Source: Reinekea thalattae
GTDB taxonomy: Bacteria; Pseudomonadota; Gammaproteobacteria; Pseudomonadales; Natronospirillaceae
DNA length: 64,000 bases
Reading direction: 5' to 3'
NCBI RefSeq assembly: GCF_008041945.1
Contig: NZ_VKAD01000001.1
Location: 1,178,001-1,242,000, forward strand
Under the pieces are notes generated by a model. It had not been told where the DNA came from, ran no database searches, and saw only the letters and a list, made by a program, of their open reading frames with translations. Made by a program: the position numbers and the translations under genes. This document shows, in pieces, positions 35,526 through 40,295 of the stretch (position 1 is its first letter; each line of letters begins with the position of its first letter).

Positions 35526-36617
35526 TTAGGCTTCGCTGATCGCCTTTTGCTCACCTCGAGGCCAAGCCGTCAACACCGCTTTAACAAGAGTGGCTAACGG
35601 TATCGCGAAGAAGATCCCCCAAACGCCCCAAATACCACCAAAAATTAACACGGCAACGATAATTGCAATGGGGTGCAGATTAACCGCTTCTGAGAACAGC
35701 AATGGCACCAAGACATTACCATCGAGTATTTGAATCACCATATAGGCCAACATCACCCAATACATCTCTTGGCTAAAGCCCCACTGGAAGACACCAATTG
35801 CAAAGACAGGAATCGTCACAACAGTAGCGCCGATGTAAGGGATCAATACCGAAAATCCGACCAAGACGGCAAGTAATGCGGCGTAATTTAAGTCCAAAAA
35901 CAAGAAGGTCACAAAACTTACGCCACCGACTATAAGAATTTCAATAAACTTACCACGGATGTAGTTGGCGATTTGCTGGTTCATTTCTAAAGCGATCTGG
36001 TTCATAAGGCGTCGCTGATTCGGCAACGTCTGCTTAAATTTATTCCACAGATACACTCGGTCTTTCAAGATAAAGAACACCATCAAAGGCACCACGATGG
36101 TGTAAATCAAAATCCCAAGCACACTGGATAAGGTACTTAATGAAAAACTCAATACATTCGGCAACCAATTACGCAGCTGGTTGCTGATCTGATTTAGGTT
36201 AAAGCTGGTGATCCATTGAGCAACCAATTCTTCAGAAATAAAGTCTGGATACTTTTCTGGCAATCCAGCCAATTCCTCTTGGAAAAACCGGAGCATTTGC
36301 GGCACATCACTAACCAAGGCGGTAACCTGCCGGACTAGTGCAGGCACAATGGTCACGACCGATACAAACAGCAGCGCAAAGAAGAACAAAAATACCAACA
36401 CAACAGAAAGCGTGTGCGGTACTTTAAGCGCCTGCAGTCGATCGACTACCGGCGACAGCAAGTAAGAAAACACAACGGCGGCAAACAACGGCGCTAAAAT
36501 AGAGCCAAAGACATAGATCAGAAAAAAGGTTATCAGTATCAATAAGAATAAGATGATCGCTTCTTCATCTGAGAAGTACTTAGCGAGAAAGTCTTTAACG
36601 ACTCTTAAGAATTTCAA
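35526..36617 (-). CDS. perM: AI-2E/PerM-family membrane protein
   Basis: Inner-membrane protein of 363 residues in the AI-2 exporter/PerM family, with about 7-8 hydrophobic spans. Family-like segments include GSILAPLFAAVVFSYLLSPVVD near the N terminus, and VLIPYIGATVVTIPV and QILDGNVLVPLLFSEAVNLHPI toward the C terminus. The transported substrate is unknown. The preceding tusA-like gene ends two bases upstream, so the two are co-transcribed, as in Pseudomonas. Confidence 0.9.
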   Translation of the reverse strand: MKFLRVVKDFLAKYFSDEEAIILFLLILITFFLIYVFGSILAPLFAAVVFSYLLSPVVDRLQALKVPHTLSVVLVFLFFFALLFVSVVTIVPALVRQVTALVSDVPQMLRFFQEELAGLPEKYPDFISEELVAQWITSFNLNQISNQLRNWLPNVLSFSLSTLSSVLGILIYTIVVPLMVFFILKDRVYLWNKFKQTLPNQRRLMNQIALEMNQQIANYIRGKFIEILIVGGVSFVTFLFLDLNYAALLAVLVGFSVLIPYIGATVVTIPVFAIGVFQWGFSQEMYWVMLAYMVIQILDGNVLVPLLFSEAVNLHPIAIIVAVLIFGGIWGVWGIFFAIPLATLVKAVLTAWPRGEQKAISEA

Positions 36618-36619
36618 CC

Positions 36620-36877
36620 TTACTCTCCTTTAATTATGCAAAAGGTATAAACACCGTCTGCGTCACGCTGCTCAACCAGCCGATGCTTGGTTAGTTCGAT
36701 ATAGGCAGGAATATCTTTCTTTGATCCTGCATCCGTCGCTTCCAGCTCAATACAGGTGCCAACCTGACATTGGCTCAATGCCATTTTCAGTTTTAATAAT
36801 GGCATTGGGCATCTCATTGTCTTGGTGTCGATACGCAAGCGCGATTCTTGTTCTGTATGGTTCTGATGAACACTCAT
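36620..36877 (-). CDS. TusA-like sulfurtransferase, paralogue
   Basis: About 85 residues with the TusA motif DTKTMRCPMPLLKLKMAL, where the Cys is the persulfide carrier. It is more divergent than the tusA at 18.2 kb. The position next to perM matches PA1006 of Pseudomonas, which I recall being tied to molybdenum homeostasis and nitrate use. That link is from memory. I chose ATG 36877 over a TTG at 36898. Confidence 0.87.
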   Translation of the reverse strand: MSVHQNHTEQESRLRIDTKTMRCPMPLLKLKMALSQCQVGTCIELEATDAGSKKDIPAYIELTKHRLVEQRDADGVYTFCIIKGE

Positions 36878-36979
36878 ATTACGTACTTTATATGTCAATT
36901 CGTCGAAGGACGAGTATGAGTTAACTGGCTTGTTATTACTGTCCGCAACTATCTGCTCGTAGCCAACAGCTCGACTGCG

Positions 36980-37756
36980 CTACGCGTTTTCGTTTGCAGA
37001 CTTGGCGCGACAATAATCGACAACGTCTCGATACGCAATGGGGCCACCAAACAGATCCAATGCTGAGCCAATGGTGACATCAATTTTGCCACTGCCTGCT
37101 CGGTCAATCGTCTGTAAATCTTGCATCGAGCGGACACCACCAGCGTAAACAATCGGCTTGGTTTTACATTGCGCCAACAACGCAATAAGACGCTCATCGA
37201 TGCCTTGCTGCTTACCTTCAACATCAACCGCATGTACTAAAAATTCAGCACAGTATTCGCCTAAATCCACTAGTGTCTGGGCGTCTACAACCGTATCAGT
37301 AAACACCTGCCAGCGATCCGTAACCACATAGTAGCGGTCGTCCTTTAGTCGGCAGCTTAAATCCAACACTAAGCGCTCTTTACCAATTTCGGCAACCAGT
37401 CGCTCCAGCCGATCATAGTCAATTCGGCCTTGATTAAAGATATAGGAAGTAACGATAACGTGAGAGGCGCCAGCGTCTATCCACTGACGCGCATTATCGG
37501 CGGTAATGCCACCACCAATTTGCATACCCGAAGGCCAAACAGCTAAAGCCTGCTTTGCCGCTTCGTCATTATTAGGGCCTAACTTAATAATATGGCCGCC
37601 AGTTAATTGATCAGTTTGGTACTGCTGAGCATACCAAGCTGACGATTGCGTTGAGACAAAATTGGTCTCCGGTTCAGCACCGTGATCGGACAGTGAACCA
37701 CCGACGATCTGTTTCACTTGGCCGTTATGCAGGTCAATACAGGGTCTGAATTTCAT
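36980..37756 (-). CDS. hisA: HisA isomerase, eukaryotic (HIS6) type
   Basis: Phosphoribosylformimino-AICAR-P isomerase, a histidine biosynthesis step. The 258 residues match the yeast/plant HIS6 pattern almost motif for motif: CIDLHNGQVKQIVGG, HIIKLGPNNDEAA, QIGGGI, VLDLSCR, FLVHAVDVEG, IVYAGG and SALDLFGG. Standard bacterial HisA proteins look different. Catalytic Asp8 and Asp132 are both present, so an active enzyme is likely. It lies alone, not in a his operon, inside an otherwise Pseudomonas-like block between tusA-like and bepA. Likely a horizontal acquisition. Whether it is the organism's only HisA cannot be judged here. Confidence 0.93.
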   Translation of the reverse strand: MKFRPCIDLHNGQVKQIVGGSLSDHGAEPETNFVSTQSSAWYAQQYQTDQLTGGHIIKLGPNNDEAAKQALAVWPSGMQIGGGITADNARQWIDAGASHVIVTSYIFNQGRIDYDRLERLVAEIGKERLVLDLSCRLKDDRYYVVTDRWQVFTDTVVDAQTLVDLGEYCAEFLVHAVDVEGKQQGIDERLIALLAQCKTKPIVYAGGVRSMQDLQTIDRAGSGKIDVTIGSALDLFGGPIAYRDVVDYCRAKSANENA

Positions 37757-37856
37757 AAAAATTTACAACCAAAATAGAGCGTTAAAATGAATATGCTGCT
37801 GTGTTTTTAACTACATCCTTTACACTGGAGCTAATTTTAAGCAATACGCAGACAAC

Positions 37857-39164
37857 ATGCGAAACATTATTCAACTTACATTAGGACTTCTGTGTATCGT
37901 CCTGCTGCAAACAGCTCTAGCCGAGGTCGGTGAAGAGAGTATTGATTGGACAGATGCAAACCAAGAACAGTTTCAAGATTACGCTGTGCGCAGTTTGAAT
38001 CGTCGCGATGCCTTATTGAACGAGTATTGGCCACACTATTGGCTAAACCAACGCTATCTAGAGCTCAACTTAGCCAATAGTCGCCCGCTTTCAGATGTCA
38101 TCGTGGTCAACCTGAAAAGTTCTGCCGTGAATGCCTTTGCCATGCCCGGCAATCTCATTGGTATGCATCAAGGCTTGTGGAACTTTGCCGACAGCGAAGA
38201 TGAATTCTTATCGGTGTTGGCGCATGAAATGTCGCACATTAGTCTGAATCACTTTTCTCGCTTAAGTAATAACCAGACTGAGCAAGGCTGGCTAACCACC
38301 AGCGGTATTCTATTGGCAGTGATCCTATCGCAACAAAACGCCGACCTAGCCAGTGCTACTTTTTTAAGCTCACTGGCGGCCGCGAACCAAAACAGCCTGA
38401 CCTTTTCTCAAGCGATGGAACTAGAAGCGGATCAATTTGGCCACCAGCTATTAGAAAAAAGCCAATACGATGCTCAGGCCGCGCGCAGCTTTTTTCAACG
38501 TCTATCGAGTGAACCTCTCAGCGGTGAAACCTATGAGTTTTTACGAACTCACCCTTACGGCTCAACTCGTGCTTCTCGCTTAAGTAACGAGGCAAGCGAT
38601 CAATCCACTTATGCAGACGATGAAGTAACAGCATTCGATGTGATCAAATTTTTATTTATGGACAGCGCCGCCAACAGCCAACAGGACAACCCTTTTTTAG
38701 ACCGGCAATCGCAGGATCAAACAAACGACCCGAATGTACTGATGGGCTGGCTAGAATATAACTATAGAGAAACTGGCGATCGCGATAACTACATCGAACA
38801 ACTCAGTGGTCTAATCGCAGACTATCGTGGCTTTCTACCGGCCTACTTTCGTCGCCTAGAATTAATGTCGCAGCAGAACACCAATAAGCAACAACAATGT
38901 GCCGCCTATCAAGAGTTTAATCGGCTGATTCGCAACCAAAAGGTCACGCTGGATGTGATTAGGACAATGGCGCAGCTAGCAGAGCGCTGCCAAGCCGAAC
39001 AGCAACCGGAGTGGCATGTGCAGCTTCTTTGGCAAAGCGGTCAAGAACAACAGGCGATTGGCTACTTAAAGCGCATTATCGGGCAAGAGCAAAACACCAA
39101 TCTATTAGCCAGTCGACGCGCTCTATTGGAAACGTTAGAGCAAAGCGCTCAACGTTTTCGTTGA
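37857..39164 (+). CDS. bepA: M48 metalloprotease with TPR region (BepA-like)
   Basis: Periplasmic zinc protease and chaperone that helps LptD and other outer-membrane proteins assemble. A signal peptide is followed by the zinc motif HEMSH (about 122-126) and the third-ligand motif ELEADQFG near 188. The C-terminal half (about 290-435) is helical and TPR-like. BepA is the closest known family. Its last 16 bases overlap the convergent nadA stop region on the other strand. Confidence 0.88.
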
Positions 39165-40213
39165 TTAGAAAAGTTCAACATCCGCTCCAGCGGAATGGTT
39201 GCTCGCGTAATAAGCTCGGGAGCAACAAAGATCTCATTCGCTGGCGAGAGCAATTCATTTTTAATGCGCTCTAAGCTATTCATCGCCATCCAAGGGCAGT
39301 GCGCACAACTACGACACTGAGCACCCTGACCGCCAGTGGGAGCTTCGATAAATAACTTTTCCGGTGAGCGCTGCTGCATCTTATAAAAGATGCCGCGGTC
39401 TGTTGCGACAATAAACTGAGGGTTCGGCAAGGTCTCGGTAGCGTTTAATAGCTGTGTTGTTGAGCCCACGACATCCGCTAGCTCGACCACCGCATCGGGT
39501 GACTCTGGGTGTACCAATACGGCAGCGTCAGGATACATGGCTTTCATTTCACGTAAGCCCTTAGCGCGGAACTCCTCATGCACAATACAGCTACCGTTCC
39601 ACAACAGCATATCGGCACCGGTTTGCTTTTGCACATAGCCGCCTAAATGCTGGTCTGGAGCCCATAGAATTTTCTCACCCTGGCGATCAAGGTAATCGCA
39701 TACATCTAATGCAATGCTCGATGTCACCACCCAATCAGCCCGGGCTTTAACCGCTGCAGAAGTGTTAGCGTACACGACGACGGTACGATCCGGATGGGCA
39801 TCGCAAAACAGGTTAAATTCTTCCACTGGGCAGCCTAAATCTAACGAACAGGTTGCCTCTAACGTTGGCATCAACACCTGCTTTTCTGGGCTTAAAACTT
39901 TAGCGGTTTCGCCCATAAACTTAACCCCAGCAACCAATACCGTACTGGCGTCGGTATCTCTACCGTATCTGGCCATTTCGAGCGAGTCACCAATGAAACC
40001 GCCGGATTTTTCAGCCAATTCCTGCACCAATGGATCACAGTAGTAATGCGCAACCAAGGTTGCATTGCGCTGCTCCAATAACGCGATGATTTCTTCGTGA
40101 TACTGCTCTATCTGTTCACGCGACAAGGGGCTTTCTTGCTCGGCAAGTGGCACCTCAAAATTGATTTGTAAGTCTGCGAGATTAGCTTTAGAAGTCATAA
40201 CGATGGAGTCCAT
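39149..40213 (-). CDS. nadA: Quinolinate synthase
   Basis: Makes quinolinate from iminoaspartate and DHAP in NAD synthesis, using a [4Fe-4S] cluster. About 354 residues. It has HYYCDP near the N terminus and cluster-type cysteines in [19 protein letters not shown] and [10 protein letters not shown]. The start is uncertain: ATG 40213 or 40198, with a TTG at 40243. It sits between the tRNA-Lys pair and bepA, as in the Pseudomonas order, and its 3' end overlaps bepA by 16 bases. Confidence 0.95.
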
Positions 40214-40295
40214 ATGAACGGAAGAATGTACACTGCGGCCCAATTAACTAGGGTCTGGAATTAGCTATTTTACCACTTGGGTTTCGATCTTGCAC

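Follow-up and report, generated by a model that had tools for sequence, protein, structure and literature searches.

A HIS6-type hisA of probable Kiritimatiellota origin, apparently in place of the native gene, in Reinekea thalattae

The window analysed here, a 64,000-nucleotide stretch (positions 1178001-1242000 of contig NZ_VKAD01000001.1) from the 2.94-Mb Reinekea thalattae genome (98.5 % complete), carries a hisA gene of the HIS6/hisA_euk type, predicted to encode a ProFAR isomerase, and no other HisA turned up in the genome. It was probably acquired by transfer of a single gene from the Kiritimatiellota to the common ancestor of this species and R. marinisedimentorum, followed by clean loss of the native hisA, with the newcomer in working order. 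According to this model, the ancestor would have taken up a lone hisA from a marine, Pontiella-like Kiritimatiellota bacterium, and the gene would have inserted between the divergent tusA and bepA genes. The bacterial-type hisA native to the genome would have been cleanly deleted from a hisB-hisH-hisA-hisF cluster, and the incoming HisA, now the sole one, would feed PRFAR to an unchanged native HisH-HisF pair. The donor was most likely another bacterium, not a eukaryote, and the gain presumably preceded the native loss; the direction of transfer is presumed from the nesting of the proteins.

The hisA open reading frame fills positions 36980-37756 exactly, as the first-pass annotation had noted, lies on the minus strand, and encodes 258 amino acids counted from its ATG. 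It belongs to the PF00977 family, and over residues 2-248 it matches positions 2-253 of the 255 in the TIGR02129 (hisA_euk) profile with 374 bits, against a curated cut-off of 229.3. In contrast, the TIGR00007 profile of bacterial HisA gave 68 bits (67.5), which misses its cut-off of 228.95, in agreement with the earlier placement of bacterial HisA in a separate subfamily. A sequence search of the PDB returned Medicago HISN3 (9fcf, 293 bits) and yeast His6 (2agk, 235 bits) at the top, while the best bacterial HisA reached only 42 bits. Given the two profile scores and the PDB matches, the assignment to the HIS6 subfamily is, as judged from sequence, far beyond chance, and the protein classes as a further member of the already known hisA_euk family. 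Furthermore, all five HIS6 hallmark motifs claimed for it previously were found, namely CIDLHNGQVKQIVGG (residues 6-20), KLGPNNDEAA (58-67), VLDLSCR (130-136), HAVDVEG (175-181), and SALDLFGG (231-238).

Asp8 and Asp132, named earlier as catalytic, also proved to be at the positions given. A structure model of the protein (mean pLDDT 90.5, built with 25 aligned sequences) found its best structural match in Medicago HISN3 (Z 39.5, rmsd 1.6, 254 aligned residues, 54 % identical), with Z scores of 33.3 for yeast His6 (sequence identity 46 %) and 26.5 for Salmonella HisA. Both matched HISN3 entries are substrate-complex structures of D57N mutants with bound ProFAR or PrFAR, and Asp8, aligned to the mutant Asn, is the equivalent of HISN3 Asp57 (chain residue 50 lies on model residue 1). 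Asp132 is invariant in all 71 HIS6-type rows of the alignment, and is a putative counterpart of the second catalytic Asp in bacterial HisA, from which it lies two residues off in both the multiple and the profile alignment. The catalytic and subfamily-invariant residues are intact. ProFAR isomerase catalyses the fourth step of histidine synthesis, and the family of the gene, its sole-copy status, and its pathway context together predict a working enzyme of this kind. The protein is like yeast HIS6 and plant HISN3 (TIGR02129) in its whole-length profile match, fold, first catalytic Asp, and named motifs, but unlike them it is gammaproteobacterial, is accompanied by ordinary unfused HisH and HisF, and is closest in sequence to Kiritimatiellota proteins. 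With the bacterial HisA of its congeners (TIGR00007) it has in common the PF00977 fold family and presumably the reaction, whereas its profile score (68 bits versus the cut-off of 229), its subfamily residues, and the gene and its place are different.

A PF00977 search of the genome recovered hisF strongly (2.4e-88) and the window hisA (8.4e-27), together with five weak and partial matches, three of them flagged over Pfam's low cut-off. No bacterial-type hisA over the TIGR00007 cut-off was found in the assembly: the top match, at 138.8 bits, is the hisF reading frame, which scores 368 bits as TIGR00735, and the sole other match is the window hisA itself. The first-pass annotation had described the gene as standing alone, far from any his operon, and indeed hisB-hisH-hisF and murA-hisG-hisD both lie on one other contig, where hisH and hisF are present, adjacent, and unfused (hisG was located by PF01634, while the names murA, hisD, and hisB were read off the sequence and not from a family search). 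This his cluster lacks hisA between hisH and hisF, the junction consisting of the hisH stop, 35 bases containing AGGAG, and the hisF ATG. Since much of the histidine pathway is present (hisG, hisD, hisB, hisH, and hisF) and no second HisA was found, the window gene presumably fills the HisA step.

The two HisA types exclude each other also beyond this genome. Within Reinekea, five of seven genomes have the HIS6 type, and TIGR00007 is exceeded in exactly the other two. Across the order, 194 genomes were sampled, the R. thalattae genome itself included; 29 carry the HIS6 type and 155 a TIGR00007 match over the cut-off, with neither over the cut-off in 10. None of the 29 has a bacterial-type hisA over the cut-off, and the best TIGR00007 match among them, at 1.7e-42, does not exceed what hisF gives in the genus. 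The hisF loci of 30 genomes were compared, comprising 24 of the 32 known HIS6-type genomes and six hand-picked native-type ones. In all six native-type genomes hisA is flanked by hisH and hisF; in the HIS6-type genomes it was unseen in the hisF stretch in 24 of 24, and hisH adjoins hisF in 20 of these, with gaps of 3-150 bases in 18 and of 432 and 470 bases in G013 and G190. In the remaining four, the compared stretch contains no hisH. A sample of the class contributed 320 other genomes, and none of them had the HIS6 type at 1e-40. No native gene was found anywhere in the genome, its usual place included, and the earlier suggestion that it had been replaced is well supported by the hisH-hisF junction without hisA, the mutual exclusion of the types, and the empty site in relatives described below. 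As a side observation, genus g81 of the order has both states, HIS6 type in G163 and a native hisA flanked by hisH and hisF in G112 and G185.

The surroundings of the gene follow an order conserved in this family, which runs nadA, M48 protease gene, tusA-like gene, and AI-2E transporter gene. In the window, these are nadA (39149-40243, minus strand; TIGR00550, 362 bits), the gene for a BepA-like M48 peptidase (37857-39164, plus strand; PF01435, 98 bits), the tusA-like gene (36620-36898, minus strand; PF01206, 66 bits), and the AI-2E/PerM family transporter gene (35526-36617, minus strand; PF01594, 253 bits), where nadA, the peptidase gene, and the transporter gene are syntenic. Against the BepA model itself the M48 protease scores 118 bits, far under the cut-off of 570. 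The insertion site is edged by the peptidase and tusA-like genes: a gap of 100 bp (37757-37856) separates hisA from the divergent peptidase gene, and one of 81 bp (36899-36979) from the tusA-like gene, which is next on the same strand. Of the genomes compared, only R. thalattae and R. marinisedimentorum have hisA inserted at this site, and its orientation is identical in the two; the protease gene directly adjoins tusA in eight of eight other family loci (five Reinekea and three of one other genus; L190-L192, from three family genomes whose protease matches are weak, lie outside the comparison).

No mobile-element trace was found at this site, only short direct repeats (14-15 bases, two copies each) and a single inverted pair of 14 bases, and the hisA G+C of 0.484 lies among neighbours of 0.43-0.50, so that nothing in its composition marks the gene as foreign. 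A promoter scan returned two matches against 2.1 expected in shuffles, and the promoter-like match overlapping the 100-bp gap is at chance level. Kiritimatiellota hisA genes have their own conserved neighbours in four of the five loci compared (in the fifth, L035, no gene joined any cluster, not even hisA, so that the comparison probably missed this locus). None of these neighbours clustered with genes around R. marinisedimentorum hisA, and none of the window's hisA neighbours was seen in three Pontiellaceae loci. The remaining three HIS6-type Reinekea (G003, G004, and G006) also lack native hisA and have the gene at other loci, in other surroundings; in G003 and G004, a MocR-type regulator-like gene, named from sequence, lies two reading frames downstream of it.

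The protein trees place the window HisA among Kiritimatiellota proteins. The main tree of 77 rows held the window protein, 22 of the 31 further genus and order genomes with the HIS6 type (another three extracted proteins were left out as near relatives of included rows), 46 of the 79 other listed loci, two eukaryotic chains, and six bacterial HisA as outgroup. In this tree, a clade of 13 rows with support 100/99 unites the window protein, that of R. marinisedimentorum DSM 15388 (NZ_SLZR01000008.1), and 11 Kiritimatiellota/Verrucomicrobia rows, two of which are titled just "Verrucomicrobia", while a Victivallales row (L072) falls outside. The same 13-row clade was obtained, again at 100/99, in a 70-row tree without outgroup and yeast, and it grew to 15 rows (98/94) in a 48-row tree to which 24 further, high-scoring genes out of the 79 HIS6-type ones of the Pontiella phylum were added. 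Identity to the 11 clade rows is 61-70 %, and among the relatives listed a Kiritimatiellales MAG is closest, at 70 %. The window gene thus resembles the HIS6-type hisA of the Pontiella group in sequence and clade but not in its gene surroundings. In the 70-row tree, a branch supported at 100/100 sets apart 21 order-type rows, among them the three other HIS6-type Reinekea; these Reinekea and a large part of the order received a different HIS6-type gene by a separate route. The HIS6-type HisA of G190 (L179, genus g11) lies outside the order-type group as well, which suggests a third source within the order; G013 and G168 are absent from the tree.

HisF served as a control for the organisms. In a tree of 39 rows, the window HisF lies inside Reinekea in a five-row set supported at 97/97, its nearest relative being that of R. 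marinisedimentorum (89 %), and Kiritimatiellota HisF stand apart at 100/100; all seven Reinekea HisF group at 61/77, and at 100/100 with one family relative added. The gene tree thus conflicts with the organism, as HisA falls among Kiritimatiellota and HisF among Reinekea. Together with the empty site in relatives, this position bears out the horizontal gain proposed in the first-pass annotation, and the protein did not come out inside bacterial HisA, next to gammaproteobacterial proteins that were inherited vertically. However, the "eukaryotic" framing of that proposal fails, since the protein nests with Kiritimatiellota proteins and not with the two eukaryotic sequences available. Rooting by bacterial HisA failed: the branch joining the two types measures some ten changes per column, and the root came to lie beside the three order-type Reinekea rows. 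Because the outgroup is too distant and only two eukaryotic sequences were included, the trees give no reading of the domain in which HIS6 first arose. The two eukaryotic rows did not group (joint clade p-AU 0.035), which may be an artefact, and the yeast row is long-branched. As all AU tests, here and below, were run after the trees had been seen, their p-values are optimistic.

How many transfers took place is the main point of competition between readings. A single transfer common to both species is likely, and its main rival, which we consider rather unlikely, is that separate Kiritimatiellota genes entered the window lineage and R. marinisedimentorum, by a second insertion into the same gap or a later recombination swap of the resident copy. 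This would account for the fact that every one of the three trees keeps these proteins apart: a starred branch joins R. marinisedimentorum to Pontiella-like rows and leaves out the window protein (97/94, 100/95, and 98/91 in the 77-, 70-, and 48-row trees), and the starred branches force two origins in the group table for the 77- and 48-row trees. On the other hand, a joint clade of the two proteins was not rejected in any of them (p-AU 0.423, 0.131, and 0.294, respectively), and the gap and orientation are identical in both genomes. The proteins alone cannot separate one transfer from two, and it is the shared site that favours one.

Other explanations are far less probable. Of these, the one to which we give the most room, although very little, is that the HisA has changed its substrate or that the strain is a histidine auxotroph with a relic gene, against which stand the intact catalytic and subfamily-invariant residues, the presence of hisG, hisD, hisB, hisH, and hisF, and the lack of any other HisA found in the genome. 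Vertical descent, with the HIS6 type ancestral in the order or genus and the native type a later arrival or kept by differential loss, appears even more improbable. It could draw on the 29 of 194 order genomes with the HIS6 type, on the 21 order-type rows on one side of a 100/100 branch, and on the merely marginal rejection of a clade of all 24 HIS6-type order rows (p-AU 0.048), but the window protein is outside the order-type group, the relatives' native hisA sits inside hisB-H-A-F, and the HIS6 type occurred in none of the 320 other class genomes. For the genus, vertical descent is rejected, as one clade of all five HIS6-type Reinekea has a p-AU of 1.8e-11. The least credible reading is a direct gain from a eukaryote, be it an alga, fungus, or plant: although the nearest solved structures are from plant and yeast, identity to the Kiritimatiellota protein (70 %) exceeds that to Medicago (54 %) and yeast (46 %), and one clade of the window and R. 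marinisedimentorum proteins with yeast and Medicago was rejected (p-AU 2.8e-4, with only these two eukaryotic sequences), so that identity and AU test together dismiss this donor.

The HIS6 type is a widespread bacterial form of HisA, as a contig scan with the window protein gave 564 relatives in 591 pattern hits, and the 80 listed, with 54-70 % identity, come from several phyla (Kiritimatiellota/Verrucomicrobia, Desulfobacterota, Bacillota, Fibrobacterota, Spirochaetes, and a few others). Among those listed, the Bacillota include Lachnospiraceae, Paenibacillus, and Clostridium, and the Fibrobacterota one MAG; Fibrobacter is a known bearer of HIS6-type HisA. Furthermore, 79 of 194 genomes in the phylum of the Pontiella genome (G517) have the type, and these numbers contradict the initial statement that it occurs in only a few bacteria. 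Because TIGR00007 was over its cut-off in none of 18 genomes with listed relatives (11 Kiritimatiellota/Verrucomicrobia and seven others, many of them MAGs), the HIS6 type apparently serves as HisA in these genomes too. Two small Kiritimatiellota/Verrucomicrobia MAGs (G523 and G525; L035 and L037) have HIS6-type HisA and no HisF over the cut-off, perhaps due to their incompleteness.

Our literature search (full text by family names, topic by titles and abstract openings of the top-ranked papers, with subscription papers mostly outside its range) found no paper on HIS6-type HisA in bacteria. A parallel is offered by the HIS7-type HisHF fusions of some delta-proteobacteria, which Fani et al. (2007, PMC1963479) read as a transfer from plants. 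This is another "eukaryotic-type" histidine enzyme in bacteria, but it is a different enzyme, and hisH and hisF of the window genome are unfused. Names of this kind, taken from old models, can mislead, and as the HIS6 type is common in bacteria, earlier readings of such bacterial genes as gifts from plants deserve re-examination.

More broadly, HIS6 could be an old bacterial family, spread by transfer and repeatedly ousting native hisA, from which eukaryotes received theirs, perhaps along with the fused HIS7-type enzyme; we put this forward tentatively, as an idea with somewhat less than even prospects. Reinekea itself unites three HisA states in one genus, the native type and the HIS6 type from two separate sources, and these, with the matching empty sites and a his cluster missing hisA alone, provide a clear-cut setting for the question of why a distant homologue displaces a conserved operon gene. 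It also allows one to ask whether HisH-HisF care which HisA supplies them.

Finally, two "eukaryotic-type" histidine enzymes co-occur in Desulfobacterota: Desulforhopalus singaporensis (G528; L224, 1498-3099) and Desulfopila aestuarii (G527; L225, 1498-3090) have HIS6-type HisA together with a fused HisH-HisF of 530-533 amino acids, and the fused protein of D. aestuarii matches yeast HIS7 (1jvn) over its whole length with 618 bits.
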